Of a stretch of 41,050 bases of DNA, positions 6,001 through 30,100 are shown in pieces; the first letter of the stretch is position 1; every line of letters starts with the position of its first letter. The position numbers and the translations under genes were made by a program. The DNA lies in the IMG/VR virus record IMGVR_UViG_3300029309_000095, positions 1-41,050 of that record, one strand, 5' to 3'. Below the pieces are notes generated by a model. That model did not search any database. It saw only the letters and a list, made by a program, of their open reading frames with translations, and was not told where the DNA came from. This DNA comes from a virus.

Positions 6001-9000
6001 GAGTTGTAATCATCAATGAGTATCATGTCATTGTTTAAAGCAGGTAAAATATGGTCACCGCTTGTGGATGTAAATGTTATTCCTTTCAAATTATTACGCC
6101 AAGTATCGACTGGTACAGGGTCGTTAAACGAATCAACAAGGATAGGTGTAGGGGTATTGGCGTGATACCCTCGTCCTTTTGTACGAATTTGTAGTACCGT
6201 TCTTGGAAGATAACCAGCATCAATTTGTCGATTTTTGTCAAGCAATGCATCGCTTATCGGTTGGTGTACAGCATCGGCTGATGAACTAAATGTGTAAATT
6301 CCAGTAGCGTCTTTTGAAAGTGTTTCATATTCACCGTATTCAAGGTGAGCCGCTTGAATAGAATAATCGGTGTGCAAACTTGAAGAAAACATGCGTGAGA
6401 TTGGTGTAGCACCACGCTGTGGATTATGTGAACGCACAATAATCGCATCACTGGCTACGCCCCATTCACCAAGCGTACGACCATCACAAGCGTACATGTG
6501 TCGTACATCAATTGCTATTCCATCTTCTTGATTTGGATTTGGATGATTAATTGCTACGTTGGTTGCAAATGCAAGAATTTCGTCTGTCATCAGCGTTGTC
6601 CAATTAATGCGTGATGATAGTAACACACGCATGGTATTGTCTGAAGCGTGAGGTTGCGTTTTTGCTACGTCTGTTACAGTACCACTGCTAACGTGATGAG
6701 ATGATGAGAATGATTCGCCACGTATACCGAAGAAAATATGTGTTCCAGTAATGTCATCCACAGTTCTTGATTCATATGATAATACATTACCAATAAAACC
6801 ATCTTGAGAAGTACCCGTAAATGTATCATGAAGATGAATAACACCGTTACTATGCGGGTAGCCAAGATAACCAAGTAAATCAGGATGATTTGCTAATGGT
6901 GAAGAAGAAGCACCAGTATTGAATGGTGCTTGAAACACGACAGTAAGTGTGTTTGCTGTGCCGTCCCATGTTACTTGGGCATCAACACCCGCATCTGGTG
7001 CATACATACCTCTCCATCGGTTACCACGCCATTTGGAAAGTTGAAGCCCCGATGCGTCCAAACGACCAGTTGGGTCACCCCAACCAAGCATATGTCCACC
7101 AAGAGAAAAGCCACCCATTGAAACATCGTCGTCATTGATGTGAACGATAATTTCATCTTCTAATGTTGAAGGTAATGTAGTATTGTCATTGGAAAAAGAT
7201 TGACCGAATTTACGGTATACGTATCGTACGCCATACCCTCTACCTCGATGGTCGGTAAACCTAAAACCATACAATGGTGAATCACCGATTGCATCTTCTG
7301 TTGTATCATTCGGATTAACGTGCGCTGTGTATGCAGTAATCGCAGTAGGGTCACTGTCGCCAAACTTGATGGCTTGACCGTACTTGAAGTCAAATCGCTC
7401 ATCGCCTCTACGACCAAAACCATGCGTGCCAGCATCGGGTGCAAAACCGGGTATTCCTGATGCTACAAGACCGCCGAAGTTGATACGCCCTACTGCTTGC
7501 TTACCTGCTCGCAATCCCTCAACAAGATTGGTTGAAAGTCCTTGAACTTCAAATGATTCATCCGACACTGTATTGTGATTGATACCACCAATTCGTGCCG
7601 ATACATTGCGGTTTTCTGATGAGTTGTTTGATTTACGGTTACCCACATCGTGATTGTTAGTAAAGGGTTCATCAGGCTCCTCTTGAAGCACGTACTCACG
7701 AAGCGTTGTAACAGGAGCAAAAGGACGACCATGCTTGTTAAGAGGCATTGGGGCTGGGTGCATGTTCTCACCCAGTGTTTCATCGGGCTGACACCAAAAG
7801 TTACGGAATCGGCCACCGTGTCCAATAAGAAATTGTGGCTTGTAGTTTGATTGACCCTTACTGTTGTCAAGCCATACACAGAAGTTACGTCCTGATGCAC
7901 CGGGTACAGTAGAGTGAATGATAATCGAAAAGCCTTCGTTTCCGTTCATGTCTTCAACAACACGCCCAATGTGAGCACGCACATATCCCATGTGGCTACC
8001 ACGGTCGTGAGTGTCAAATGCTTCATCAACAAACCACCACGGAGCAGGGTCAAAGGTCGAACCTGTAGCGGCAAAATCAGCATTGATATGTGCGCTACTT
8101 GGGTCTTTTGCTTCAGATGTAACGTCCTGTCGTACACCAATACGTGTAAGGTCAAGACTTTCGCTTTCACCGGGGTACTGTTGAGATGGACGACGAGCAT
8201 GAGTTCGACCGTTCTTTGCTCCGCCTTGATTGATTAGACGAACAATTTCACGAGTAGCGGCTTCAATATCCGTAACACCCTCTTTAACTCCAACTTCACC
8301 ACAATCAATGACCATGCGACGTACAAAGTCCATCTCAGTCCAATGCGGTAGATGTTCTAAACGGTCTTCTTCATGAGTCGCTAAATCGAGAGTAGAGGAG
8401 CGTATACCTTTCAAACTCAAAAATGCTGAAATACAACGTGTGCCATCAGGTGTATCGAACAACGTACTTGCGTCACGGAAACTAAACGTAGACGGATTTT
8501 TTGATAACCGATGCAATTTAAGTGCTTCAACAAATCTGTCTTTACTTGGTCGTCTTGTATTTTTGTGTTTTTCATTTGCCCAATACACCGATGCTACAGC
8601 AGGTTCGACACGAGGCAATGCGTTGTCACTCACAGCGTAGATGTTACTATTGTAACCATACATTAGTCCTGAATGTACAAAGTGACCGTGACCTTTACCC
8701 ATCAACTGTTTATTCTTACCCCTGTTGTTTGTTGAGTCGCTTATGTCTTCAATCAAGAAATTTGCATTGCTGTTTGCTATATCGTGTGCGTAGGCTGATT
8801 CAATAAACTTCGATTGTTGCGTACTACGCAAGTATTTGTTTTCACTTGGAAACCCATTGGCTACGTCGATTTGAGTTGTAAAGTAATGCGGTGCGCCACC
8901 ATTGTGAGATACCAAGAAACGGTCGAGTTTTAACACGCCACCCGCATGTACAATGTCACGACCAAACCCAATATGCGGTGTAGCCGCACTCGATTGAACT

Positions 9001-12000
9001 TGCATGTGTAGGTCATGGAATGCGATAAATTCACGGTCATGGGCTACATCGTAGAGCAATACACGAGCATGTCCTTCTGTAGCAAGATATGGGTCTACGT
9101 ACGCTACTCTCGGAATATCTGTGTATGTACTACCAAGCATTGATTCATAATTGATTTCAATTGTTTTGTTAATGTGTTGAGCCAAGTTTTGCGCTGTTTC
9201 TAAACACGTATCACCAATCAAAAAATTCTCAAGAGGGATTGAGTCACGAGGACGACTGGTAAGTGAACCACGTCCACCGTTGAAACCTTTCCAAACAAGA
9301 TGTTCGTTAAGCACACCACGGCTCTTACAAAACATTCCCTCTACAGCATGTGGATTGTTCATGGTCATGTTCATCCACACTGTGTCACCGTTTCGCATAC
9401 CACCTGCGGCATACGGGTTTAGCCATGTAGCGTTCAATATAGCATCATGGTCTTCGGGTATGACGCTATCAATAGACACTCGAATTTTATCACCAACTGC
9501 TACAGCACAAGCGTTGTTTGCTGTAAGCGTGATGACTGTGTTCGTTGTACTCCCGACTACATTAGAAACAATTGAAGACACTTTTCCAAGATAATCAATG
9601 TCACCTCCCGATATATCGTCAATGTACAACTCATCGTCTTTACGTATATTCAGTCCTACCGTATTTGATGAGGCAAGACGGTCAGATGCGGAAGTTGTAA
9701 TTTGAATGGATGTAGTAGTACTACTGGATGCGGCTACTGCGATTGTCCACTGTTCAGAAGTATCGGGAAGGAACGTTAATGCTGTGCGTTCACCTGTTAT
9801 TGAAGATGAAACACTTGCGGCTGAATGTAATGCCCTACCAGCACGTTTTAATTTTAAAGTAGCACCTTCAAGACCTGTAAGTGACGTATTTGCTGATTGG
9901 CATAGAACAACGTTCGGTTGGTCTGTTACAGCACCAGAAAACGATGATATACGTCCATAATATACCAGTTCATGAGTTGTTCCATCCGCTAAAATTATTT
10001 CAGCCGTATAAAGTAAATCACCTTCACTCAAATCGAGAGTATTGGTGATACTTCTTGAAATTTCAGTCAATTCGGGAAAATTACTTGTATCTTCAAGAAT
10101 AAGTGTATAGAGTCCACCTATGTTACCAGATGATTTGATTGTTGATTGGGCTACACCTGATTGCACTCTTGGTGCATGTGGATTGACAAGTGGACCTGCT
10201 TTGATTTCTATGGCACTAACGTACTGTCGAAGACCATAATCCAAATTACCGCCTTGTGTTTTGACGTTTGCATTATCGTAGTAGTACGGTGAACGTGCTT
10301 CATAATCAGAAGAAGACGTTTCTTTATCCGACGCAATAGGTACTAAATTTTCACTACGATAACCTTGTGCAATAAAAAGAGCAGTTTGCGGTACTGCCGC
10401 TTCAAAGAAACCCTTAGCATACGAACCTGATATGATACCGCTTGTACCGCTATCATTTTCATCTACACGCAAAAACCCATCACTACTTGGGTCGTTACGA
10501 TACATACACCATAGACCGTTACCCAAAAATGCTCTCCTAAATCGAGGTAATTTTTTCATGTTTGAGTACTCTAAGACAGAAGTATCAACTGGTGGAAACA
10601 AAGAAGGATGGGAAACGTAAATTTTGTAGAATTTATTTCCTGAATCATACACTACTTTTGTAATTGTTGTAGAGGAAACGTAATCTTGATTATTAATGTT
10701 GTATGAATAAGCCGATGACGCAGTACGGTCGGCTATCTGAATGTCATCAGCACGTCGTCCAACAGGTGTAGGATTCCAAGTGTGCGCTGTATATGTGGCA
10801 TCAATATGTATTTTCATGCTGTTGTCAGGTCCGGGGAACACATTTTCACTTTCATGGTCAAAAAACTGTTGAGGGAAGAACGGTATTTCGACCATTGCAC
10901 GAGTGCTTGAATACTGTGTGCCTAACTGATAGTCATGCGTTACTCCATCCATTGATTGAAATAATCGGTCATTGACTGTACTACCGTCCTGTGAGAGTGA
11001 GTCATCGTTAAAATTATCGTCGTTGTAAATGTATTCAGCAATGGTTTCAGTTACAGTTGCACCTGCTGATGCTGTACCACGTAGCACTCCCGTTTCCTTA
11101 GCCCACACATAAAAATTTGGTACAGCAGTGCCATCACCTGTCAAGAATCGTCCTTCGCTTACTGCATCAGCATCATTGTTGAATGCAAACCCAACACCAG
11201 TTTTTGATTCGTATAATGCGCTTGCACCGTCAGCGAGAAAAATACGCCCTTTTTGTGGAAAACAATACGTTCCCCATGAAACTAAATCAGGTGAATTGTT
11301 GTTGAGTGGTCGTATCATTAACGTGTTGCTAATACCACTTGTGTTGCTATTTGTGGCTGCTATCTCCGTCGCTTGTACAGCGCACATTCGTCGTGTTGAG
11401 CCGGGTAGACGCATTAACGGCGAAGGGTCGAAGGTGGGCTTGGTATTGACCGCCCCTTGACCGGGACCGCCAAGCGTGACAGTAACGACAGGCGCATTGG
11501 GTTCAATCTCTTTGACGACGTGAGAATCAGGCGAACCACTACCAAGCACATTGACGTTTTGCGATAGTGCGCTTTCAGCAATACCATGAATGGTTACCTC
11601 GGTAGTACGCATGTTACTGTCACCATCGACTTTTTCAGCGATGCTACGAACTCGCCCACGAGTCATAAGTTCAAGCAGTGTAAATTCTGATTGTTGTATA
11701 CTTGTCATGGTATTCAACTTGTTCAATTGATTCGTGCGATTTCGATTCGTAGGATGAATAAACAATTTTCCTTTGTTTCCATCCAATGTAAGAGTATTGT
11801 CAATGACATCAAACATTTCAAAGGTATGACTCTTCAAAGTCATTGGTGAAATATCAAATTCTCCAGTACTTGTTTTATCAGCGATTGGTTGTAATATACC
11901 ATTTGTGATAGTATTGTTTTCCAAACCTGTGCTTGGATTCAATAAAATTTTATGATAAACAGATTCATGTACAGCGTTATTGTGTGATTTATTGACAACC

Positions 12001-14231
12001 TTTGGTGGTGATGCAGGGATAGCAGTAGTATCGTTTACAGGAGTGTAATTGACAGGACAAGTAGAAAAATCAAGTTCGGCATCATTTTCTTCCCCACCTG
12101 TACTGTCGCCCAGCAGTGAATGTGGATTTTGTAGTGCTGTGCTTAGTGTGGTGTCCGTAGCACTTACATCAATGTAACCACCGGGTGAAAAGAGGACTGC
12201 ATTTGCAAGGTCACTGGTTATTACATCAATAACACGAGTACCACTACCTAAGTCAAAAGACCCTGCTGGTACAGTTTTTTCAACCATGAGCATTGGACCA
12301 CTAATCCCCATGCTTGCACCAGTTATGTCAATGGCGTTATAATGAATTTCAACAAATGGTGCAAGATTGTGAGAGGACTGTAATGCAGGTACTTTAAGCA
12401 AAGCAATGCGAGATTCTTTTTCGGGTCGTAAGTGGTATAATCTTGCATCAGCGTCATCGTACAGTAAAGGCACTGGACCTTTCAAGAAAAACGGTTGTGC
12501 ATCAAACGTAGCACCACCAATAGCAATAAGTTCTTTCTTACTTGCAGGTAAGCCGTTATTGACTATAGATTGAACAGGACTTGAATTGACAAAATTCAAC
12601 ACTTTACCGACAAAGTTTCCAGTAAAAGTGTCTATTTTACTGTTCATAGTAATTCCGTTACGAAGGTTAGATTGACTCGAATCAAAAGATAATGATACCA
12701 CATCAGCACTACCATCCATAAGTTGGTCTACACTCATTTCTGTTGGTTTTGGTAATTTTCGCATATATTCATGTCCAACAATATGCGTTAGTGCATGTCG
12801 TCCACTGTGTCCCACTTGGAATAAATCATCAAGGTGTGTAGGCCACGTTACGGCAAAAGGATTGTCCGTGTCTATACTGGATATTGCCATACGAGAGGAG
12901 TAAACTAAACCGTGATTCTCATGTTCACTTTCGTCCAATACCATTTGACCTGTACGGTCTAAAATTTGCGAACCATAGTGTGGAGGTTGATACGGTCGCC
13001 CTGTCCCATTATCAATCAATAAGTCGGCATTGACGACAACAAAGTAATTGTCCACGTCAGCCGTTCTTGAGTGTAGCAAACCTCGTAGGCCATTCGTCCC
13101 ATTTACAAAATCAACGTGTATGCTTGATATAGTGACTGTACCGTTGCTTCCGTTAATTGAGTGTAGACGCACCCGTTCAGGTGGTTTTTGATTAGGCTTG
13201 AATGTGTTTTGATTGATAGCCCCTGCGTTGATGAGCAGGTTGTAGGGCGTGTGTGCCACAGAAAGAGTCGTAGGAGTAGCAGGTGCAGTATACAAATCAT
13301 TGACTTTGTACTTCCCCATGCTGTACGGCGAATCAGTAAAGGTTGCAATAGGACTACTGCTGTCGTATGCTTTACCTGTTAGTTTAGCAATTAAACTTTG
13401 AGCGTCGGCTGTTGCAATTGTAAACGTCGTTGTGCTACCGTCTGTTGCGGCTGTCACCGCATTCATTGTGTAGATTGTTTCAACAATATCAAGCGGTTCT
13501 TCAAACCTATACATACCCGTTGTAGCATCTGTCATTGTAGGCATTTCAGGTGCAAAAACGTTCACACCCGCACTATCTGAAAAATGCAATGCTTCTATTG
13601 CACCACGAAATTGTCCTCCCTTACCACCGACGTAAATATGACCATCCACAGGTTTTGGACGAAACGATTCTGGAAATTCTTCAAAGGCAATACGTTCACC
13701 ATTAACGTGCATCTCCATGAGATTGTTTTTGTACGAACAGACAACATGATACAACGGTCGATGCTTAAAATTCAAACTGGTGGCTTCACCATATGTACTC
13801 GTGTCGAAACGGTTGTACGTATCGTGTATACCGCCAAATTCCTGTGAAGGGAACACAATACCGTCGTATCGTGTTGCAGTTTCAGTTGCACTTTTGATGA
13901 ACATACTTTTGTCACCCGAAGGCGTTTGCATCATTAACTCAAATATCGCTGGACCCGCAGTATCTACAGTACCAAGAGTAATACGAAATTGATTTTCTCG
14001 CTCGACAACTATTCCACCACAATCAGGTATAACCCATGCTTCAATTACAAAATCGGAAAATTCGGTTGCGGCTATTGAACTTTCAAGTTCTTGCTCACCC
14101 AGTGTTGTAATAGGAGTTTTCACACTACCTCGATGTACACCTGTGCTTGCAAAACGACTTTGAGGAATAACAATTGAATCAGACACACCATCGAAAAAGA
14201 AAGCATGACTTGTTCTTCCAATTGCGACCAT
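1..14231 (-). CDS. Giant tail fibre/adhesin with N-terminal LamG-like lectin domain, partial (runs off left edge)
   Basis: One reading frame starts at the ATG at 14229-14231 and has no stop that I can find down to base 3, giving at least 4743 codons; the C-terminus lies outside the window. A GTAGGTG ribosome-binding site sits 5 nt before the ATG and overlaps the stop of the preceding gene. Residues about 11-245 look like a laminin-G/concanavalin-A-like domain: FFDGVSDSIVIP near the start, then FVIEAWV (61-67), VNGER (176-180) and YVGGKGGQFRGAIEALHF (200-217). A second, weaker LamG-like stretch is near residues 4290-4460. The rest is Ser/Thr/Gly/Asn-rich and looks beta-structured, with no obvious transmembrane segment. 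Its place as last tail gene after the tape measure and distal-tail candidate points to host recognition. The fibre role is inferred; the open frame is seen. Confidence 0.85.
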   Translation of the reverse strand, partial: MVAIGRTSHAFFFDGVSDSIVIPQSRFASTGVHRGSVKTPITTLGEQELESSIAATEFSDFVIEAWVIPDCGGIVVERENQFRITLGTVDTAGPAIFELMMQTPSGDKSMFIKSATETATRYDGIVFPSQEFGGIHDTYNRFDTSTYGEATSLNFKHRPLYHVVCSYKNNLMEMHVNGERIAFEEFPESFRPKPVDGHIYVGGKGGQFRGAIEALHFSDSAGVNVFAPEMPTMTDATTGMYRFEEPLDIVETIYTMNAVTAATDGSTTTFTIATADAQSLIAKLTGKAYDSSSPIATFTDSPYSMGKYKVNDLYTAPATPTTLSVAHTPYNLLINAGAINQNTFKPNQKPPERVRLHSINGSNGTVTISSIHVDFVNGTNGLRGLLHSRTADVDNYFVVVNADLLIDNGTGRPYQPPHYGSQILDRTGQMVLDESEHENHGLVYSSRMAISSIDTDNPFAVTWPTHLDDLFQVGHSGRHALTHIVGHEYMRKLPKPTEMSVDQLMDGSADVVSLSFDSSQSNLRNGITMNSKIDTFTGNFVGKVLNFVNSSPVQSIVNNGLPASKKELIAIGGATFDAQPFFLKGPVPLLYDDADARLYHLRPEKESRIALLKVPALQSSHNLAPFVEIHYNAIDITGASMGISGPMLMVEKTVPAGSFDLGSGTRVIDVITSDLANAVLFSPGGYIDVSATDTTLSTALQNPHSLLGDSTGGEENDAELDFSTCPVNYTPVNDTTAIPASPPKVVNKSHNNAVHESVYHKILLNPSTGLENNTITNGILQPIADKTSTGEFDISPMTLKSHTFEMFDVIDNTLTLDGNKGKLFIHPTNRNRTNQLNKLNTMTSIQQSEFTLLELMTRGRVRSIAEKVDGDSNMRTTEVTIHGIAESALSQNVNVLGSGSPDSHVVKEIEPNAPVVTVTLGGPGQGAVNTKPTFDPSPLMRLPGSTRRMCAVQATEIAATNSNTSGISNTLMIRPLNNNSPDLVSWGTYCFPQKGRIFLADGASALYESKTGVGFAFNNDADAVSEGRFLTGDGTAVPNFYVWAKETGVLRGTASAGATVTETIAEYIYNDDNFNDDSLSQDGSTVNDRLFQSMDGVTHDYQLGTQYSSTRAMVEIPFFPQQFFDHESENVFPGPDNSMKIHIDATYTAHTWNPTPVGRRADDIQIADRTASSAYSYNINNQDYVSSTTITKVVYDSGNKFYKIYVSHPSLFPPVDTSVLEYSNMKKLPRFRRAFLGNGLWCMYRNDPSSDGFLRVDENDSGTSGIISGSYAKGFFEAAVPQTALFIAQGYRSENLVPIASDKETSSSDYEARSPYYYDNANVKTQGGNLDYGLRQYVSAIEIKAGPLVNPHAPRVQSGVAQSTIKSSGNIGGLYTLILEDTSNFPELTEISRSITNTLDLSEGDLLYTAEIILADGTTHELVYYGRISSFSGAVTDQPNVVLCQSANTSLTGLEGATLKLKRAGRALHSAASVSSSITGERTALTFLPDTSEQWTIAVAASSSTTTSIQITTSASDRLASSNTVGLNIRKDDELYIDDISGGDIDYLGKVSSIVSNVVGSTTNTVITLTANNACAVAVGDKIRVSIDSVIPEDHDAILNATWLNPYAAGGMRNGDTVWMNMTMNNPHAVEGMFCKSRGVLNEHLVWKGFNGGRGSLTSRPRDSIPLENFLIGDTCLETAQNLAQHINKTIEINYESMLGSTYTDIPRVAYVDPYLATEGHARVLLYDVAHDREFIAFHDLHMQVQSSAATPHIGFGRDIVHAGGVLKLDRFLVSHNGGAPHYFTTQIDVANGFPSENKYLRSTQQSKFIESAYAHDIANSNANFLIEDISDSTNNRGKNKQLMGKGHGHFVHSGLMYGYNSNIYAVSDNALPRVEPAVASVYWANEKHKNTRRPSKDRFVEALKLHRLSKNPSTFSFRDASTLFDTPDGTRCISAFLSLKGIRSSTLDLATHEEDRLEHLPHWTEMDFVRRMVIDCGEVGVKEGVTDIEAATREIVRLINQGGAKNGRTHARRPSQQYPGESESLDLTRIGVRQDVTSEAKDPSSAHINADFAATGSTFDPAPWWFVDEAFDTHDRGSHMGYVRAHIGRVVEDMNGNEGFSIIIHSTVPGASGRNFCVWLDNSKGQSNYKPQFLIGHGGRFRNFWCQPDETLGENMHPAPMPLNKHGRPFAPVTTLREYVLQEEPDEPFTNNHDVGNRKSNNSSENRNVSARIGGINHNTVSDESFEVQGLSTNLVEGLRAGKQAVGRINFGGLVASGIPGFAPDAGTHGFGRRGDERFDFKYGQAIKFGDSDPTAITAYTAHVNPNDTTEDAIGDSPLYGFRFTDHRGRGYGVRYVYRKFGQSFSNDNTTLPSTLEDEIIVHINDDDVSMGGFSLGGHMLGWGDPTGRLDASGLQLSKWRGNRWRGMYAPDAGVDAQVTWDGTANTLTVVFQAPFNTGASSSPLANHPDLLGYLGYPHSNGVIHLHDTFTGTSQDGFIGNVLSYESRTVDDITGTHIFFGIRGESFSSSHHVSSGTVTDVAKTQPHASDNTMRVLLSSRINWTTLMTDEILAFATNVAINHPNPNQEDGIAIDVRHMYACDGRTLGEWGVASDAIIVRSHNPQRGATPISRMFSSSLHTDYSIQAAHLEYGEYETLSKDATGIYTFSSSADAVHQPISDALLDKNRQIDAGYLPRTVLQIRTKGRGYHANTPTPILVDSFNDPVPVDTWRNNLKGITFTSTSGDHILPALNNDMILIDDYNSSSKVFNTPSSSYSITHALIPAGQESATFTDSGGVSRSKELSFGERKRFYYTDKQFALLVSEQGSNSLTEIKLERDDFANDDWVANFTGTLIAKDHIFMRFGQQQIGGRRSYGAVDAEPLVYFRGAIDSNDHSVPLYFGGGFSGVVLDINDGTENDYSSFYTHPYSNGPTGTAGIQNANEISTSFAIVDCNALLAFFPATPLLNQHRGSLTHPVANRNNVLSPDLAGGAQPPHPNTPAHVQARYTAGIVQQKPSPLVLRVANPNARYKDTDVGETHTTYIIFGPGQAFPFTEMAAVNTDEKPHPGYVVTTGNTWSKVPASKNLPNEIKNSDNQYGPPSAAYQTARQVFHWNTTWNWSPAQGVPNIGTTSGAGLIQRPEHGSHYGEHFTKSVRVTTSNIEDYRKAHPYKFVGAMYYGIAMGADLCFHMDGGYHPGGSWMDNQLSFNPPHDISDYKINRGHNIVHPSAFRVSGKLANNFVTGVSNENIATLYEDEFIVVDATRCQNGEELATILGQSINEFPGSSAIKAMGGTFAPSMGNAMRQDRYGWVEMSFGSYVIDSVTSKTILKATIGSATQATLEQIPACGWLRTPDGGTTNVGSGDIPTFAPYHSREVVSDGSGGFDVHFLLAPNRSSSRPLMESLRTYDDVARGAYAVGSSHPNYSGGNPSAVYVWSKAGVHRFNNENDSTRDHMTQVHFSGVVDAIDRTRPVGAVGWAGERYSYLNSLKVGSEQYGAGLGAWHPMLGFSPYGSSNSCMTAFGHLAHSNPITFTPEASQRINNQGNSETVITTPYTWKYGLALSNSYYSGYAFDSAENSNLGASPVTYRDIDDDTFALPRSLHMPQGVYSRAFVVISYESEMALVAKHDRDGIKATGDWLSVSSKVNVDSVAPATAITFAGTTRWDERIHNPERFTAPANAGPNIEALIANGFAHTTATYPSAYNFGAALADDSTLFNAEPCFNETGDLFYDLDESPASIHLETITGVERNLRRKYTISSSDASITSRYATGRNFWEGDLNAFQLAEHSPVKNFSVENVVWKRMDGGNLSLPAVNARGLGAVPFITRVSGGSPHITGEKLFGNCRFSFETTNSAMYPIIQAQELSHPQIAARHPDELRNVLEIPNEELQFLALSVVDDTGQKHSIEGGSPFGTIIRSFKQISDRTAEGLAPSEAGSGVEPNLKIQLPDADAIPGNIIVRSGFNRLQAYQNETMGTGGMLRPNIETGIEGIFTDATDGPRLGPTFSDHEYDHISQNSVGEAFPDMTRKGWKSATNNAPLKTSYELHDRALFFHITKNGNSHTHRYPAFYSHANGITSNALTASSYSGTTLTVNATINTTLYRDAYGDSQKDGGGTRRFLRIYNDATGESGVASFTGISSNTFTGCVGDSAFDAIVAKSSITSFSVVPSYYVPAGSNRFFAARRIRDHAEVSGNSPDMAHSMYVTGHGGANVLCYDAYKKTRLTPMAIPRMGHHFVNATQAMLPGHWAHPAYQGLYFKHRADRSATQKNLEKSLIQDTALSIDRANLPSATQIQIPGYDPMLTFGSMTATPSGPSDIHGGGFTLMFETKVKYDGYGVLASKGQAGIVNSKGGHTIVLEAGATYTLKHHFPDPSEVGAYQIIIQPNVHKSQFHGYHENGGATGLPDGSVNELTGQQVALVIGIREPDSATGGLGLVLAETTMADVRGCEVFINEVMLDHDPDYGGQLANIPPLLLYNALGVQNTEAPAFIRRSLPYHPGMFIDATPGFTTNIPWWSIVHKISPEDSSAVGFRHLSWHKIDNYYEFIRAGAGSIAGQLTLAGYPSNHPDFYSTIIENISLSPVAVVKAVASTLITVDDARGFPKVPYYGMKLEYTDANGIRRTHTYTERSGNDASHMNKPHRFTITASSNFTNNLTVGTKIRLTRAYDFRPAGKLMKESKSSIFTRMLPQLLQGSRDTNSLHMADAYLCLWNPNLGRPHTFYSDASRTWLSTTADRAVNRKPLNSMPEHYETIHYHDATYYNSLGPFT

Positions 14232-14239
14232 AACAACAC

Positions 14240-15427
14240 CTACAAAATCATGTTTGTTGCGATTAAAAGAATAGTGAATGAGTAGACGTTTGGTTCACCA
14301 CCAACTTGTACAAACGTTGCTTTATCAACAGCAACTTTCATTCCAGTAAACGTTACTCCCGAATCAGTAATATCAAAGTCAGTACCGGCTGTGCGGCCAA
14401 ACTTTGCAAAGTTTGTACTTTTTGTTTGAAACGCATGTGTACCAAATCCAGTGGTTGAGTACATTACTCTCGATAAATGTTTTTCACCAGTTGGAACATC
14501 AATAGAAGAGAGGTAGGGTAATTGTAAACCTATGATATAATGTGAAGGATGGCGGTCATCATCACCAATTACGCCTCTTCTCCACCTGTTTTGAGAATTT
14601 GAAAGAATAGCATAGAGTTGTTGCACAATATCACCCGCACTCAAATTTGCTGTAGAGGTGGCTTCGACTCCTTTATTCATCGTCGTCATACGTGGCTCGA
14701 AACCCGCCATTGTTGCGTGAGGATAATACATGTCATTTGTAAATGTAGAACCTGTAGGTACATTTGTAAACGTAATTTCAACAGCCATATTTGCGCCATT
14801 TTTACCACTGATAATTTGTGAATTTAATGTTGGGATTTCACTTGTAATTAGGTTGTGTAAACCCGTTGCCATTTCAGCCGCAGTTTTCAAAGCACTACCG
14901 TTGTGATAAGACAATATATACTCATCAGATGACGAAGTAGTATCAAACCCTGCGGCAGCGTTATTTACACCTAAAAATACTGTAAAAATATTTTTCTCTC
15001 CCCCTGTTACTGTGCCTCTCCAAAACTGTATGCGATTAAAATCAGCGAAAGTATCGTTATTCAATACACTCCCATCCAAATTATTGTATGCCCCTTGTGA
15101 GGCTGAAAAAGGCACTATTGAAGAAACAAATTGCGTGGAATGATTCAAATCCGTAGTGGCGGCTACAGAACTAAAATCAATGATAGCACTCGCCGCTTGA
15201 CCTGTCGAAGATAGTACAGCGTCACCGTCTGTTATTACGCCCTCAAGCGTAATGACGCTGTTGGTAAGATTCAGGTCGGCAGTTATTCTCGTAGAACCCG
15301 TAGCGGGGAGAGGTATTGCCATAACCTTCCTATCTATGTCAATCGACACACTGGTACAGGACAACTCATAGAACCGCCCGTTTTGACTTATTAGGCGCAC
15401 AGGAGTAGTGGAGTGTCCAGTGCTCAT
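14240..15427 (-). CDS. Putative distal tail / tail-tip protein
   Basis: This 395-residue protein begins at an ATG that overlaps the tape measure stop (ATGA), so it is probably translationally coupled. The N-terminal 60 residues (RLISQNGRFYELSC, then SIDIDRKVMAIPLP and SVITLEGVITDG) read as alternating beta strands, like the start of distal tail or baseplate hub proteins. The middle is Ser/Thr/Asn-rich, and the C-terminal third (FDITDSGVTFTGMKVAVDKA, then a hydrophobic end) is again beta-like. It lies exactly where tailed viruses encode the distal tail protein, between tape measure and fibre. I recognise no specific family; the role rests on gene order and general character. Confidence 0.55.
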   Translation of the reverse strand: MSTGHSTTPVRLISQNGRFYELSCTSVSIDIDRKVMAIPLPATGSTRITADLNLTNSVITLEGVITDGDAVLSSTGQAASAIIDFSSVAATTDLNHSTQFVSSIVPFSASQGAYNNLDGSVLNNDTFADFNRIQFWRGTVTGGEKNIFTVFLGVNNAAAGFDTTSSSDEYILSYHNGSALKTAAEMATGLHNLITSEIPTLNSQIISGKNGANMAVEITFTNVPTGSTFTNDMYYPHATMAGFEPRMTTMNKGVEATSTANLSAGDIVQQLYAILSNSQNRWRRGVIGDDDRHPSHYIIGLQLPYLSSIDVPTGEKHLSRVMYSTTGFGTHAFQTKSTNFAKFGRTAGTDFDITDSGVTFTGMKVAVDKATFVQVGGEPNVYSFTILLIATNMIL

Positions 15428-16665
15428 CCGTATCGACCTCGCATGGTTGTACCGCCGATACTACGTGACATCTCCTGTTGAATCATGTTACCAATCTCTC
15501 GTGCCAGTTGTCGCTTATCGGTGCGGTCGGTAATGCCATTGGCGTTTACATTGATGTTGAAAGTAGAACCGCCTCCGCCGCCCAAATTTGTACCTGCTAC
15601 AATAGTGTCTTTATCGTTGAGAGCAAACGAACCTTCGGGTCCACTAAGGACTCGACTGTAGCCCACTGGCCCCATGACTACATCATCGGCCACCATCGAC
15701 GCTACCCTATCAGTAACACCGCCGATAATGCTAAAACCGCCGCCACCACTTGCGCCCCCTCCTCCACTCATTTCTTTAAGCATATTGAAAGGTTTCATAA
15801 AAAAAGCAATAAGGGATTCTCCTAATTTTCTTCCTTCTTCTTTTATTTGCTGAAAAGCAATTACGACATTATCACGTATTGATGACGAAGCGTTTTTCCA
15901 AAAACTTTCTTCTGACCATTCAGGTTCGTCAGATTCTACAACAAATGCGTCCCAATCATCTTTGATTGCTTTTACACTTCCTTGACCATATTCTTTGGCG
16001 TTATTCCATTCTTCGTCCGTTAAGAACCACGGCTTAGTGTCTGTCGCAAAAGCAGCCTCCCAATCAAAATCATCCAAGTCTTTTGCATGGTCTTTAATCA
16101 TTTCATATGTTTCATTGGTCATCCAAGAAGGTAAATTCTCTACGTCGAGGTATGTGTACCATTCTTGTTTTGCGGCTTCTGTGCCTTTTGTTTTGAGTTC
16201 TTCCCAAAGCGCATTTGACATCCATTCAGGTTTTTCACCTTTTAGATTAAGCATACCGTCCCAATCTTGTGCGGCCATGACTGAAGATTCTTGTTCTAAT
16301 CGTTGCCATAGGTCGGCAGTCATCCATTCAGGTGTTTCTTTTAGGCTCAACATTCCGTCCCATTCTTTTGCAAATGCAGCCATAACAGCCTCATCGAGTA
16401 TTTTTGTTTTATCAATCATACCCCCCATCATTTCACTAAACTTGCCTCGAAGCGTTCCTATTGGGTCTGTAACAGCGTCAAAAACAGCCTTGAATGTATC
16501 TCCAATATTTTGTATTCCTTTCAAAACAGGGTCAATGAACGTACTTTTAAACCAATTCCACAATTCACTGATGGTGTTTTTGATTGCTTGACCTGCCATC
16601 TCAAAAGCCGGCCCAATCGCTCTTGCGGCGTTGGACATCGAAACAAGTGATGCAAGTGCTGTCAT
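15424..16665 (-). CDS. Tape measure protein, short, with Trp-anchored repeats
   Basis: The ATG at 16665 is chosen because GAGGGAT precedes it by about 6 nt; a TTG at 16677 in the same frame has no such site. The product has 413 residues. Residues 1-100 are helical and hydrophobic. Residues 101-270 hold five imperfect repeats of about 34 residues, each starting with a Trp (W102, W135, W169, W202, W238) and often containing PEWM or PSWM; the best copies share WDGML. A Gly-rich linker follows, then a C-terminus of the kind seen in tape measures (FNINVNANGITDRTDKRQL, then REIGNMIQQEMSR). It follows the tail assembly chaperones, as expected. At the usual ~0.15 nm per residue it would set a tail of only about 60 nm. 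Confidence 0.8.
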   Translation of the reverse strand: MTALASLVSMSNAARAIGPAFEMAGQAIKNTISELWNWFKSTFIDPVLKGIQNIGDTFKAVFDAVTDPIGTLRGKFSEMMGGMIDKTKILDEAVMAAFAKEWDGMLSLKETPEWMTADLWQRLEQESSVMAAQDWDGMLNLKGEKPEWMSNALWEELKTKGTEAAKQEWYTYLDVENLPSWMTNETYEMIKDHAKDLDDFDWEAAFATDTKPWFLTDEEWNNAKEYGQGSVKAIKDDWDAFVVESDEPEWSEESFWKNASSSIRDNVVIAFQQIKEEGRKLGESLIAFFMKPFNMLKEMSGGGGASGGGGFSIIGGVTDRVASMVADDVVMGPVGYSRVLSGPEGSFALNDKDTIVAGTNLGGGGGSTFNINVNANGITDRTDKRQLAREIGNMIQQEMSRSIGGTTMRGRYG

Positions 16666-16673
16666 ATTATCCC

Positions 16674-16946
16674 TCAATCAAAATCTTCCGGAAAGTTGTA
16701 ATCCAGTTTCACTATCTCCCTGTCACCGACTTTAGCCCTTAGTCGTTGTTCCTCTCTTCTTTCCTCTTCTCTTTTATTTTGTCGCTCTTTGATAACCATA
16801 GCCCATGTAAGTGATTGTTGAAAGAGTGGTCGTGGCATGGCATATACTTCGGCAAGGGATATGTTGTAATGTGTCGCTATGATGTACGCCCATTGTTGTA
16901 TTTGTAAGTTGTAGTCGTTGGGTTCCTCGTACTGCTCTTTCTCCAT
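16674..16946 (-). CDS. Tail assembly chaperone, downstream (T-like) part, expressed by -1 frameshift
   Basis: The 90-residue frame from the ATG at 16946 has no convincing ribosome-binding site (CGCAATTT precedes it). The same frame is open upstream through TTT TAC CAA CGT GAC CGA GTA GCG GTC ACG CAA TTT, right back to the slippery heptamer at 16979-16985 in the upstream gene. It is therefore best read as the second half of a frameshift fusion of about 220 residues. The protein is Gln/Glu/Arg-rich and helical: WAYIIATHYNISLAEVYAMP is followed by a highly charged helix (KERQNKREEERREEQRLRAK). In lambda-like tails such a gpGT fusion binds tape measure and tail tube protein during assembly. It sits directly before the tape measure gene. 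Confidence 0.75.
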   Translation of the reverse strand: MEKEQYEEPNDYNLQIQQWAYIIATHYNISLAEVYAMPRPLFQQSLTWAMVIKERQNKREEERREEQRLRAKVGDREIVKLDYNFPEDFD

Positions 16947-16952
16947 AAATTG

Positions 16953-16985
16953 CGTGACCGCTACTCGGTCACGTTGGTAAAATTT
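16953..16985 (-). promoter_or_regulatory. -1 programmed ribosomal frameshift site: A AAU UUU heptamer plus stem-loop
   Basis: On the minus strand the first chaperone gene ends GGA AAT TTT ACC AAC GTG ACC GAG TAG. A_AAT_TTT (16979-16985) is a canonical X XXY YYZ slippery heptamer in the zero frame. Five bases downstream is a perfect 8-bp stem, CGTGACCG/CGGTCACG (16953-16973), with loop AGTAG, which contains the zero-frame stop. A -1 slip moves the ribosome into the frame of the next gene, which is open through the stem-loop. Confidence 0.85.
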
Positions 16986-17335
16986 CCAGTCATATCCTCC
17001 AAAATCTCATTGGGTTTTGGAAGGACTTTTGCTATTTGGTCGCCTACGTACCCCTTGAGGTCAAGCAACTCTTCGGGTGTAAGCACAGGATTTGTTTCGA
17101 TAATCCAATGAGTGAAAGCGTATCTCCAGTAAGCCTGTAGGTCGAACTTTAGTGTACCATTGCCTTTGATTTGCATAAGTTGTCCAGTCGCCTCTTGTAT
17201 GTCAAAGTAGGATATGTCCTTGACCCACACTTCCATGTAAACGGATGGGTCGTCTTTATCCACTGCTATTTCATACTTCGTCGGCTGTTTGTTCTTCAAC
17301 AATAGGTTCTTGTTCTCCATTAAGGTCTTCTTCAT
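16961..17335 (-). CDS. Tail assembly chaperone, upstream (G-like) part
   Basis: The ATG at 17335 is chosen because GGAGAGG lies 6 nt before it; the frame continues up to another ATG at 17350 without such a site. The product has 124 residues and its first 20 codons overlap the acidic 3' end of the SAP-domain gene in another frame. The body (VYMEVWVKDISYFDIQEATG, then YWRYAFTHWII, then LTPEELLDLKGYVGDQIAK) fits small, mostly helical tail assembly chaperones, with Trp/Tyr-rich segments. It lies between tail tube and tape measure genes, the conserved place for lambda G/T-type chaperones. Most ribosomes should stop at TAG 16961; a fraction should shift -1 at AAATTTT and make the longer fusion. Confidence 0.8.
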   Translation of the reverse strand: MKKTLMENKNLLLKNKQPTKYEIAVDKDDPSVYMEVWVKDISYFDIQEATGQLMQIKGNGTLKFDLQAYWRYAFTHWIIETNPVLTPEELLDLKGYVGDQIAKVLPKPNEILEDMTGNFTNVTE

Positions 17336-17813
17336 TCGTTTCCTCTCCATTGGATGCGGCTACCTCTTCGGTAGGGGCTTCCGAATCACCGTCAAGGGCT
17401 ACCTCTTCGGTAGGGCTATCGGGTTCTTCTTCGGGAATAATACCTTCATCATTTTGCTTTAATCGCAAAACTATCTCGGCTTTTGTACCGTATACGGGTA
17501 GACCACGCTCTTTGCATAGGTTGCGTAGTTCCGCTACGGTGAGTGAATCGTACTGTAGTTCAGTAGGGAATGGGTTTGTATCAGCAGGTGGGGGTGCTAC
17601 TGGGTCGCTCTTGACCTCTACTTCTTCAACGACTTCCTCTACGGGTTTAGCAGGTTCTTCCACAGTAGTAAGAAGTTTAAGACCCCAGTCATGTATCGAC
17701 CGAATATTATCCAATGGTATTGATTCATCAAATGGTAACTCATTTACAAGACAAAACCATTCAGCATAACCCGCTAATCCCAATTTTCGACACTGGTTAA
17801 TTGAATAAATCAT
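17271..17813 (-). CDS. SAP-domain protein with acidic C-terminal tail
   Basis: This 180-residue protein starts at an ATG with a strong GAGGTGA site 4 nt upstream; the stop of the tail tube gene lies inside that site (TGAGGTGA). Residues about 91-122 form a SAP motif (LTVAELRNLCKERGLPVYG, then TKAEIVLRLKQ), a helix-extended-loop-helix fold that usually binds DNA or proteins. Residues 50-75 are Pro/Glu/Val-rich, and the last 55 residues are very acidic with a repeated PTEEVA unit. Its place just before the chaperone pair suggests a tail assembly factor or a linker, not a chromatin protein. The function is unknown. Confidence 0.75.
   Translation of the reverse strand: MIYSINQCRKLGLAGYAEWFCLVNELPFDESIPLDNIRSIHDWGLKLLTTVEEPAKPVEEVVEEVEVKSDPVAPPPADTNPFPTELQYDSLTVAELRNLCKERGLPVYGTKAEIVLRLKQNDEGIIPEEEPDSPTEEVALDGDSEAPTEEVAASNGEETNEEDLNGEQEPIVEEQTADEV
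17358..17415 (-). repeat. 19-bp direct repeat inside the SAP-domain gene
   Basis: The 19-base string ggctacctcttcggtaggg occurs at 17358-17376 and again at 17397-17415 on the plus strand, 39 bases (13 codons) apart and so in frame. It encodes the repeated PTEEVA unit of the acidic tail and looks like a recent tandem duplication within the gene. Confidence 0.85.
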
Positions 17814-17822
17814 ACTTTCACC

Positions 17823-19739
17823 TCAATACTTTAAAATGGTATCACGAGCAAGTACCTTGATACTCTTTGGCATAATCTTCATTGTACTCTTCATTGCACC
17901 TTTGTCATCAGGAATTTGCATTGGTGCTTCGACAATGTAGTATTCGTCAATAAGAATAACAATTTTTTCAGTATTGGAGGCAGAAGTACTCCCTCGTGCT
18001 TGCTTTTCAAATTCAACAACAATTTGATTGGTTGTTGCGCCTTCATCATTTACACTAAACGACGTACCTGCACGCATTTTATGGTAAAACACAGGGTCAT
18101 CAACAACAATCTCCATAGTCATCTCGTACGAGGTTTGACCCTCTACCATAATGGAAGTGTTACGACTACCCGCAAAAGGTACTTGAGATTCAGCCGAATC
18201 TGTAGCAACGTGTGTGTTATTGATGGTATGGAAACCTTGCATACCTGTCGAGCCAGTAAGACTGAAACTCAATACTTGCGCTACAGTAATACCAGCAGTT
18301 TTAATTTGTCCATTGTAAAACATAAATGGTTTTTGTGTACCAATACCAATACCTGATTTCAAACGCTCGGTTGCATTTTGTGCAGTATCATCAAACATAC
18401 GATGTGCGACATATCGACTTGTAGATGTACCGGGTGTATCAAGACGACCAGTGTCGGTGAACGTCAATGCCGAATTGAAATTAACAGACAATCGCAAAGC
18501 GGCATCATTATCTGTTGTAAGAGTAAAATCAGTTACTTTACAGCCACGATAAATACGTGTTAGTTCCTTTGAATCGGTTGTAGTACCAATCGCACCTGCA
18601 CCTGAAAACGCAACATCGCTTCGACGTTGAGATACTTCAAGACAAAATGAAGGTACTTCACTACGACCATACAATAGATGCGTAACAGAATTAGTGACTG
18701 TTTGACTTGTTGCGCCAATAGTAGGTGGATTTGTGCCGGATGTAGCATAATCCAACAAAAATACAGTGTCAGTACTTCCTATTGAACCTGAACTTTCAGC
18801 ACCCGATTTGTGATTAAATTTTAATGGCTCATCGAGATAAATTACATTATCAGGTTCAGATACACCAATAATACGACGAATTTCATAAGGATTTGCTTTA
18901 TCAAAATCCCTATCATCAATAGTCCTATCCCATGTACCTTGCGTAGCCGCATGGTCAGTGACAATATCCACTACAGTATCTTCTTCGTGTTGTATTAAAA
19001 CGTATTTTCCCGCAGCAAAATTTGTTTTTGAATGCACTGTTATGTGCGATTCACCAGCATGGGCGGCGGCAGTGAGGTAGGTGTTGGTACTTGAATCACC
19101 AATAGTTCCAATTATTTCGTTACCTAAACAATATTTCAACCATCGGGCTGAATGAAGATTAACCTCAAATGAACCACCTTCTGTAATGAACTTACCGGGT
19201 ACTTGCACCGAAGTATCTCGACCAAGCCCGACAACGTGGTATCTCTTCAAATCAACTTTTGTTTCAGGTAATGCAATTGCATTTGCAATTCCCAAAAACT
19301 GGTCAATCAGTAATGATTCACTTGGGTCAGCAGTATTACTTGCGGCTCCATTATAAGTATGATTAACAGTGTCCATTGGTGGTGTTTTGTAAGGTAGAAT
19401 AAACAATGTATCGCCTGAAGAAAAAGTTGTTGAAGCCATTGCTGGACTTAATTTAATCGTTGTAGCATCATTTTCAATAATGGTAAAAATTTTACCATCA
19501 GTATCAGAACCGAGTCCACTAAATGTGACTTGAGAACCTACCAGTGCATTTTTTGGATAATTTAGACGATGCGAAGAATCAAACAATACATTGTTTTGTT
19601 CCGATGAAAATGTAATTGTAGCAACATCACCACTGTTTGAGGCACTCATTGTAACGTCAGTACCATGACGGATAATCAAGCCCGTTTCCGGAGCAAATAA
19701 GACTTCTGAAACATCTCCCTTGTAGACTGTCGATGGCAT
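17823..19739 (-). CDS. Major tail tube protein, enlarged
   Basis: This 638-residue protein starts at an ATG with AGGTGAT 5 nt upstream. It begins MPSTVYKGDVSEVLFAPETG, a start typical of tail tube subunits, and reads as alternating beta strands with Gly/Thr/Ser turns throughout. It ends MKIMPKSIKVLARDTILKY. Tail tube subunits are usually 150-300 residues, so this one must carry extra surface domains, probably in the stretch around residues 200-350. It lies between the tail terminator and the chaperone genes, the standard position. No contractile sheath gene is adjacent, so the tail is probably non-contractile. The assignment rests on position, start and fold character; sequence identity to a named family cannot be judged here. 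Confidence 0.7.
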   Translation of the reverse strand: MPSTVYKGDVSEVLFAPETGLIIRHGTDVTMSASNSGDVATITFSSEQNNVLFDSSHRLNYPKNALVGSQVTFSGLGSDTDGKIFTIIENDATTIKLSPAMASTTFSSGDTLFILPYKTPPMDTVNHTYNGAASNTADPSESLLIDQFLGIANAIALPETKVDLKRYHVVGLGRDTSVQVPGKFITEGGSFEVNLHSARWLKYCLGNEIIGTIGDSSTNTYLTAAAHAGESHITVHSKTNFAAGKYVLIQHEEDTVVDIVTDHAATQGTWDRTIDDRDFDKANPYEIRRIIGVSEPDNVIYLDEPLKFNHKSGAESSGSIGSTDTVFLLDYATSGTNPPTIGATSQTVTNSVTHLLYGRSEVPSFCLEVSQRRSDVAFSGAGAIGTTTDSKELTRIYRGCKVTDFTLTTDNDAALRLSVNFNSALTFTDTGRLDTPGTSTSRYVAHRMFDDTAQNATERLKSGIGIGTQKPFMFYNGQIKTAGITVAQVLSFSLTGSTGMQGFHTINNTHVATDSAESQVPFAGSRNTSIMVEGQTSYEMTMEIVVDDPVFYHKMRAGTSFSVNDEGATTNQIVVEFEKQARGSTSASNTEKIVILIDEYYIVEAPMQIPDDKGAMKSTMKIMPKSIKVLARDTILKY

Positions 19740-27174: not shown

Positions 27175-30100
27175 CTATACTTTGGAAAGTACAGGTTCAT
27201 CGTCTTTGAAGTCCAAACTAAGGTGCTCACCCTCTTCGGTATCTGTTTCAACAGGTTTGAAGTGTTGCGGTTTTTTCTTTTTCTTAGGCTCAATATCATC
27301 GACTCGTTGATGATAGTCAGGTAGATTTTGTTCATCAGTAAGTTGCGTAGGTCCAGCAGGTGATTCAACGGGTGTTCCTAAATCTATACCCAGTCCCTTC
27401 GGTCCAGTCCATGTCATACGTTCTTTCGCAAGTTTATCCAATGTGCGTACAATAACTTCCAATGCTTTTTTCTTGTCTTCGGGTTTGAGTAAGATATTCT
27501 CATCATCTTCTTCGATGATACCTACTGAATTTTCCTCAATACGCTTCGCTGATGGCTTCTTTGGCATTTCAAGGTCTTCGACTTTTGATTTCTTTTGCAA
27601 TTGGCCGCTAAACAAAAGCGGAGCAAGTGGACTCCAAAACGGCTGTAGGCTTTCAGCCAGTGTTACACTGTAGTCGTTTTTGTACAAATCACCCATTGTA
27701 CTCACTGGAGAATGCACGTACCACATATCACCGACTTCATCGACTTGGTACGTTACAGTATCAATGTCCTTTAGAATAACGTGTAAACCATCTTCATCGT
27801 ATTCAACATCATGTGGGATATTGATAGGTAGGTAACCTTTGGTTAGCAAGTCAAGCGACTCGGTGCTCGCTGGACCTTCACCCTCACCCTCACCTTCGAT
27901 TTGACGAATCTGTACAGTGTAAACGTTTTTTTCACCACGAGTCTTCTTGGTAATACCGCTTACCGATGCTCGTACAATATCACCAACCTTGTACGCCTTT
28001 TGCTCACGTCGTGCTGTACCTATGTCCATGTAGTGCTTACCATCAATAGTAACGGCTCGGTTTTGCAGTCCTTCATCATCAAGCAGTGGACCTGCACCCA
28101 ATTGGTATGTGTACGGTCCATTGCCTCGTCGGTCAAGTACAATGAAGTTGTAGTCACGAGTCGGTCGGTACAATATCCACTTTGGATGTCGATACTCACC
28201 TTTCATGTATGTGGATTTAGAATCACGCAACAAGATGTTATCGTGGTCATCTTGCATTCGCTTGACAGATTCTTTCAAGCCCTCATTGTCTGTCATTTTT
28301 GTATCGTGCGGTCCGGGTACAATGACATTCTCGTGACTTTCAAATTGTGAGCGAAGAATCTTGACACGCTCAAACAACAGCATGTCGCTAATATCATTGT
28401 TGTCGTAATTAATAATATCAATAATATTGAGGTCTTCATCCCCCATAATTCCGTCAATAGCGTAGTTTTTGTCGCTTACCTTCACCAGTGCTTCACGGTG
28501 GTTCTTGCGAAGACCAACCTTCTTACCCTTCTCATTCAAGGCAGTGACTTCATCACCGTTCTTAATGAGCATGACACGCTTACCATCGTACCATTTTGAT
28601 ACGACCCATGAACCACTAAATCCACGTAGGTGTTCTAAGTCACTCATTTCAAAGATGCGATGCATTGGTCGAATCAAAGGAGTCCACTGGGGGTCTTCTT
28701 CTTTCATCAACAACTCATCAGGATTAAGCATTCCTTGAATAAACTCCGTCATTTCGTTGAGAGCCAGCCTGTTCGGGTCTTGTCCAATTGGTAGGAACGT
28801 TTCAGGGTCAAGACCAAAGATAGGTAGATTGCTTTCTCTTGGTGGTGGGGCATTACCCCATACTTGTTCTCGGACATCTTTACCATGTACCATGTCGGTA
28901 AGTTCGTGTGGCACAGTCATGTACAATCCCTCTTCGACATTTGTACCCGCTACCATTTGACCATCGGCTGTAAACTCAACACCAACTGATGGTGCAGCGA
29001 GCCATCCACCGTGATGTCCACCTGCATCAAACGTATCAAAGATACTGTAATTGTTAGGATTAGGCGCACCAACAGGCACTTGTGTCATGCCGGGTCTTGC
29101 GCTAATGGAAGTTGTGGGTTGTTCCATTCGTCCTTCCTGTTCAACCATTGGATTGTAATGCAATATTGTGTCCAAATTATTTCGTGTCGTAGCAGCGATT
29201 TGAGGAAGACCTTTTCCTGATGAACCACGTTTGTATTGTTGAGCACCGTGTACATCGTTTTCAATCATCTCCAATCCATTCGCATCAGCAAGTGCTGTGA
29301 ATGAACCACCCATAAGTTGTTTTACACGACGTGGTAATGAGTGTAATTGAGGGTATGACTTAAACGCACTTGGTTTCTTAACCTCCGAGTAAATGGTATC
29401 GAGCGCACCATGATACCCATTTTCTTGAGCCAACTTTGAGAAACGCATTGCGTCGTTCAAATCTTTATCATCTTGTTCAAGTATACTTTCATCGTGAAGG
29501 TGTGTAATATCGCTGTTGTGCAAGTCAGTTACATTCCCATGCATCAATAGTTGATTGACTGTAGAAGCAAACAATGGTGTGTTCATTTCATTCGACCTGT
29601 CGATAATTGAACGAGCATGTTCTTTCATTTCAGGAGTCTTTGGTAACGCCAGTGCTTCAAGCACTTCTTCCACGCTCATGTTACCGTCTACTTGGAATCC
29701 ATGCTCTTGCAAATGCGATGCTACATTTTGATGAAAGTTATCGTTTGCAGGGGGTTTGTCGTACGTTATATCATCAAATGAAAGACCGTAACCAAGTGTT
29801 TGCAATCCGTGTACATCGTGCGGTACATGTGTAATGTATCGTTGTGCGTCACGGAACATGCGTGCGTTGTTGTCAATAAATTTTTGCGGGTCGTTTGGGT
29901 CAAAAGCGGTAGGGTCAGCCTCAAGCATTTTTTCTTTAATCATCGGTGCAACTTGTGCTACCAACATACGATGTGCTTTCTTGAGGTCTTCTTCACGTCG
30001 TTGGTCGATTTTCCAATGCGATGTCATTTTACCTTGAGTGCTTTCAATGGCTTGTTGTTGAAGCGAGGTTAATTCAGCAACCTTTTGAGAAAGTTGTTGC

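Follow-up and report, generated by a model that had tools for sequence, protein, structure and literature searches.

A predicted -1 frameshift with an upstream Shine-Dalgarno-like element in the tail assembly chaperone genes of a probable marine archaeal virus

All recognisable genes of the 41,050-base viral record analysed here (the window) lie on the minus strand, to which the coordinates given below refer. Two overlapping reading frames, G and T, are found in a row of genes with the order tail tube-like protein, SAP-domain protein, G, T and tape measure protein. The probable tail tube protein (17823-19739) was recognised by its position and by a match to Phage_tube_2 below the curated cut-off (E 0.0012), the SAP-domain protein (17271-17813) by Pfam (SAP, E 3.5e-12), and the short tape measure protein of 413 aa (15424-16665) by phrog_58, tail length tape measure (E 1.7e-4), as well as by its position after G and T. 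Ribosome-binding sites of the GGTGA or GGAG type precede several of the genes. G is the zero-frame ORF at 16961-17335, and the ATG at 17335 assigned to it by the initial annotation is a sensible start, with the probable ribosome-binding site GGAGAGG (17342-17348) 6 nt ahead of it; an alternative in-frame ATG is present at 17350. G begins within the 3' end of the SAP-domain gene, in another frame (17271-17350), and the probable ribosome-binding site of G likewise lies inside that gene. Downstream of the tail genes, an ORF of more than 4,743 aa (3-14231) runs off the end of the window and perhaps encodes a giant tail-fibre or adhesion protein. Another large ORF of 1,914 aa (27175-32919) is located between the portal and the protease/MCP genes, an unusual place for what its weak ATP-dependent DNA ligase domain match near the C-terminus (E 0.0055, below cut-off) and its KWYDGKR motif recall.

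The assignment of G as a zero-frame tail assembly chaperone is based on its sequence, its homologues and a fold match. The structure model of G (mean pLDDT 87) matched, in a Foldseek search of BFVD, the tail assembly chaperone of HHTV-2 (Haloarcula hispanica tailed virus 2; E 1.1e-5, TM 0.63) and a Bacillus phage tail assembly chaperone (E 1.8e-4), while the top BFVD match carries no name. No match for G or T was obtained in the fold search of the PDB, Pfam returned no match to G, and tblastn of the G-T fusion against named phages found nothing; in PHROGs, G gave a weak tail assembly chaperone match (phrog_25860, E 0.015). As modelled, G folds like tail assembly chaperones, which sequence libraries alone would scarcely reveal. 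The initial annotation had named the two frames as such chaperones, and both the fold match and the position between tail tube and tape measure genes are in line with this.

The 3' end of G reads ...TTG GAG GAT ATG ACT GGA AAT TTT ACC AAC GTG ACC GAG TAG and contains the slippery heptamer A_AAU_UUU in phase (16979-16985), followed by the 5-nt spacer ACCAA (16974-16978) and a stem of 8 bp closed by a 5-nt loop (16953-16973). The stem arms, CGTGACCG (16973-16966) and CGGTCACG (16960-16953), pair perfectly, and the loop AGTAG (16965-16961) holds the zero-frame stop codon TAG of G (16963-16961). T is the -1 reading frame at 16674-17006, which opens 21 nt 5' of the heptamer, is read after the slip as FYQRDRVAVTQF... 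and ends with TGA at 16676-16674. Since the -1 frame is open solely from 17006 to 16674, a shift into it is possible only within the 46-nt overlap. The first ATG of T itself is found at 16946, about 15 nt beyond the G stop, and is not preceded by any SD-like sequence. The initial annotation had described the heptamer, the 5-nt spacer, the 8-bp stem with the stop in its loop, the continuation of the -1 frame from the heptamer into the next gene and the missing ribosome-binding site of T, and these are confirmed. Its inventory of signals stood as regards heptamer and stem and overlooked a further element, GGAGG (16996-17000), a putative internal Shine-Dalgarno-like stimulator that ends exactly 10 nt upstream of the heptamer. 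Canonical XXXYYYZ heptamers occur 144 times in the window when both strands and any phase are counted, and only one of them, A_AAU_UUU at 16985-16979, has a perfect 8-bp stem at a distance of 4-9 nt. The layout of heptamer and stem is thus real and beyond chance. Rfam gave no match across the window or at the frameshift site.

Scans of viral contigs yielded 195 loci with a G homologue, which comprise 96 distinct sites, and thinning at 90% identity left 55 relatives. T lies in the -1 frame at each of the 195 loci. Two ORFs in different frames would likewise result from an indel error in sequencing or from decay of a former single G-T ORF, but this explanation is refuted by conservation, namely by one register in 195 loci from many assemblies, by selection on synonymous sites and by covariation, and its probability is negligible. 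The initial annotation had named, as evidence against a frameshift, homologues in which heptamer and stem are missing and the two genes stand apart with good ribosome-binding sites of their own; no relative with a cleanly separate T was found, and all of them keep the -1 overlap.

Each of the 96 sites has a TTT codon suited to slipping close to the 3' end of G. The two codons ahead of it are GGG GGG at 65 sites, GGG GGT at 13, GGA AAT at five and GGA GAT at four, and the remaining nine sites show five other kinds of codon pair. Most relatives thus have GGG_GGG_UUU or GGG_GGU_UUU at the slip site. AAATTTT is invariant within the clade of the window, and the exact combination of A_AAU_UUU and stem is a feature of this clade and not universal. 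Of the features that the initial annotation had proposed to align among homologues, the open -1 frame was recovered at every locus, while the heptamer varies and the stem is mostly absent outside the clade. Of the variants, G_GGU_UUU and G_GAU_UUU have been described as shift sites (PMC5009743). G_GGG_UUU is not a standard two-tRNA slip site, which suggests that the P-site tRNA would slip alone. In four relatives (L221, L224, L225 and L246) the slip site is GGA GAT TTT, where re-pairing in the P site would be poor. The run of six to seven G at the site in most relatives makes it conceivable that RNA polymerase slips and inserts a base, so that the ribosome would not be involved. We consider this extremely unlikely, as the window clade has AAATTTT, one relative (L014) has four G only and others have GGAGATTTT, all of which are short for such slippage, and as an SD-like element at ribosomal spacing together with a stem after 5 nt are signals addressed to ribosomes.

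Translation of T as a separate gene from its own ATG at 16946, by termination and reinitiation after G and without any frameshift, was weighed against the pattern of conservation. The short distance between the G stop and this ATG would suit reinitiation, and at 17 of the 96 sites an SD-like sequence precedes a start codon in the T frame, this start being in nine cases a GTG that overlaps the stop; at these nine sites reinitiation of T may be conceivable. By contrast, three relatives (L064, L067 and L089) lack any ATG, GTG or TTG over the initial 200 nt of T, and no ATG occurs before +70 in 87 of the 96 sites. In T, L064 and L067 share about 50% identity with the window. Moreover, homology of T among the relatives begins at the slip codon, and the protein is conserved from there onward. 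In close pairs, 68% of the substitutions located from the G stop to +134 fall on third positions of the -1 frame, the corresponding value for G in its own frame being 74%. Judged by these substitutions, T is under protein-level constraint ahead of its first ATG. Reinitiation would also leave heptamer, stem and SD-like element unexplained, and the ATG of the window lacks an SD; we therefore regard it as very unlikely. The -1 frameshift proposed by the initial annotation is supported by the common register of the 195 loci, by the covarying stem and by the three relatives without an early T start.

The upstream GGAGG was analysed in the 55 thinned relatives, where the predicted pairing with the archaeal anti-SD had a mean of -7.9 kcal/mol compared to -3.5 kcal/mol in synonymous shuffles (z -15.4), whereas six control windows elsewhere in G gave z values between -0.8 and 1.5. 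The strong pairing at the site is due to codon choice: glutamate is encoded by GAG in 42 of 45 cases as compared to 26% elsewhere, and alanine by GCG in 26 of 34 cases as compared to 10% elsewhere. Kinship among the relatives makes the P values for this element too small, and a set thinned at 80% identity gives a like picture. GGAGG is located at exactly 10 nt in 26 of the 55 relatives and some SD-like motif is present in 48 of them. From this codon usage, the SD-like element is seen to be kept by synonymous selection. Its distance from the heptamer is within the range of 9-14 nt upstream known for stimulatory SD sequences of -1 shifts in bacteria (PMC5009743), as in frameshifts of the dnaX type, which are stimulated by an internal SD. 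The complementary anti-SD GGATCACCTCC ends the 16S of the Poseidoniales assembly in which a related virus lies, an assembly that may or may not represent the host of the virus in the window. It is unlikely that the frameshift is real and GGAGG a mere by-product of codon or amino-acid preference without any role. Such a by-product would be in accordance with the lack of an SD-like motif in seven of the 55 thinned relatives and with the haloarchaeal virus HCTV-2, in which A_AAA_AAC is found without an SD-like sequence, but GCG and GAG, nearly fixed at the site, are in the minority in the rest of these genes, the z value of about -15 is accompanied by flat controls, and the exact spacing of 10 nt is common to HVTV-1.

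The stem downstream of the heptamer is supported by its fold (-13.7 kcal/mol, z -3.4) and by covariation. It is found at the same position, with the stop in the loop, in the clade of the window and in the distant L068 lineage. In this small alignment of five distinct rows, three of the eight stem pairs have changed on both sides, the third pair being seen as U-A, A-U and C-G, and all 40 cells are paired; sliding the stem partner abolishes pairing. On the evidence of this alignment, the stem covaries through compensatory changes in the window's clade. Across the 55 thinned relatives, downstream structure was hardly above controls (mean z -0.79 versus -0.58 to +0.10), and neither folding nor RNAalifold revealed a stem common to all relatives, the stem being restricted to the window's clade and the one other lineage. 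A different group (L134, L111, L122, L135, L151, L158 and others) has a 10-bp hairpin about 17 nt past the slip codon. With 80% of its cells paired and some covariation, this hairpin was considered as a stimulator and is not claimed as such, as it overlaps conserved E-x-F-L codons and is too distant for a classical stimulator.

The virus itself is most readily placed by its MCP. The only named relatives of the MCP in the phage collection come from viruses that infect haloarchaea or two methanogen-related lineages, the closest being those of haloarchaeal viruses; the MCP of the window has 36-37% identity to those of HVTV-1 and HCTV-5, with 37% to HVTV-1. In a collection with one genome per species, the only MCP relative found was on a contig from an uncultured Poseidoniales archaeon (61% identity; L252, CACGHY010000002.1, Poseidoniales AG-422-I20), on which ORFs resembling portal, protease and MCP follow the order of the window when read by eye. 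The G profile found nothing in the tail-chaperone region of this contig, part of the downstream locus being masked. The presence of this related virus in a Poseidoniales assembly provides a link to a probable host group and, together with the haloarchaeal MCP relatives, is in agreement with the archaeal origin proposed in the initial annotation. By these features the virus may belong with the magroviruses (Magrovirales; PMC12999244), tailed dsDNA viruses of Poseidoniales related to Druskaviridae. Frameshifting is not mentioned in the magrovirus paper that was covered.

Several known systems share parts of this arrangement. For the tail chaperones of HVTV-1, HCTV-1, HCTV-2 and HCTV-5, -1 frameshifting was predicted before (PMC5009743; PMC8211752), and GenBank has a joined CDS for the -1 overlap of HVTV-1/HCTV-5. 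HVTV-1 and HCTV-5, which are Haloarcula viruses (Druskaviridae), resemble the virus of the window in being archaeal tailed viruses with a related MCP and a -1 overlap, in carrying GGAGG 10 nt ahead of the heptamer, and in a 63-column alignment with the G profile, which takes in the ...PQP....ED.. end (E 8e-5, probability 60%). They differ from it in the heptamer G_GGA_AAG and in having no strong stem. The reviews covered make no mention of their SD-like element. HCTV-1 has the weaker GGGGAG as SD-like element. As a separate observation, in HHTV-2 (L250, KC292024, 30609-31552) the -1 frame that overlaps the 3' end of gene 47 continues into gene 48; gene 47 is a tail assembly chaperone by its BFVD name, the annotation shows no frameshift here, and a search for a canonical heptamer found none. 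In phage lambda, the heptamer of G/GT is G_GGA_AAG. The two lambda ORFs likewise overlap, are flanked by the tail tube and tape measure genes, and undergo a -1 shift shortly before G ends (PMC5009743), while their host is bacterial and no sequence similarity to the window was found. In E. coli dnaX, an SD-like element upstream, a slippery heptamer and a stem-loop downstream are combined in the same manner (PMC5009743); unlike in the window, the heptamer is A_AAA_AAG, the stem is longer, the ribosome is bacterial, and the shift, with an efficiency of about 50%, shortens the product. The alpha-L-fucosidase gene fucA of Sulfolobus represents an experimentally studied -1 frameshift on an archaeal ribosome; it is a cellular gene with an A-rich slippery site, rare codons and a putative stem, and no SD-like stimulator is seen for it in the passages covered (PMC8211752). 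In the literature covered, no paper was found that describes stimulation of an archaeal frameshift by an internal SD, and the upstream SD-like helper is apparently a third element unreported for archaeal frameshifts.

Taken together, it is very probable that the window stems from a magrovirus-like tailed virus infecting marine (Poseidoniales) archaea and that G and G-T serve as its tail assembly chaperones, with G-T produced by a -1 slip aided by three signals. Following this, we propose that most ribosomes would read G and terminate at the UAG at 16963-16961, and that a minority would slip back one base at A_AAU_UUU and continue in the -1 frame, giving a fusion of G plus T of about 220 residues. 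During elongation, the anti-SD of the archaeal ribosome would pair with GGAGG, the heptamer would allow the tRNAs for Asn and Phe to re-pair, and the stem of 8 bp, which follows after 5 nt, would hinder the ribosome. By analogy with lambda, G may coat the tape measure protein and T, within G-T, may recruit the tail tube protein. What the sequences show is the layout, its conservation, selection on the SD-like element and covariation of the stem, from which we infer slippage in the cell, its rate, the share of each signal and the roles of the two proteins. The evidence argues strongly for use of the signal by archaeal ribosomes, which the initial annotation had anticipated as a notable case; it is less of a first than that annotation supposed, given the earlier predictions for HVTV-1 and HCTV-1/2/5 (PMC5009743; PMC8211752). 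By comparative sequence evidence, the site is a new and well-supported case of predicted archaeal tail-chaperone frameshifting. We further consider it fairly probable that anti-SD pairing by elongating archaeal ribosomes serves as a programmed frameshift stimulator, that the SD-like element 10 nt upstream is ancestral in the tail-chaperone genes of archaeal viruses, marine as well as halophilic, and that it causes most magrovirus-like viruses to use slippage at the non-standard G_GGG_UUU, where the P-site tRNA alone would re-pair fully.

For annotation, the finding is a correction, as gene callers would shorten or omit T. Recoding in archaea is known from very few cases, and here a frameshift signal has been retained across roughly 100 distinct sites of viruses that infect an abundant order of marine archaea. 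The arrangement suggests that a trick of bacterial viruses is also used by archaeal ribosomes, and it opens to direct test the question of whether archaeal ribosomes, while elongating, scan the mRNA by means of their anti-SD and can be shifted by it, as bacterial ones can.
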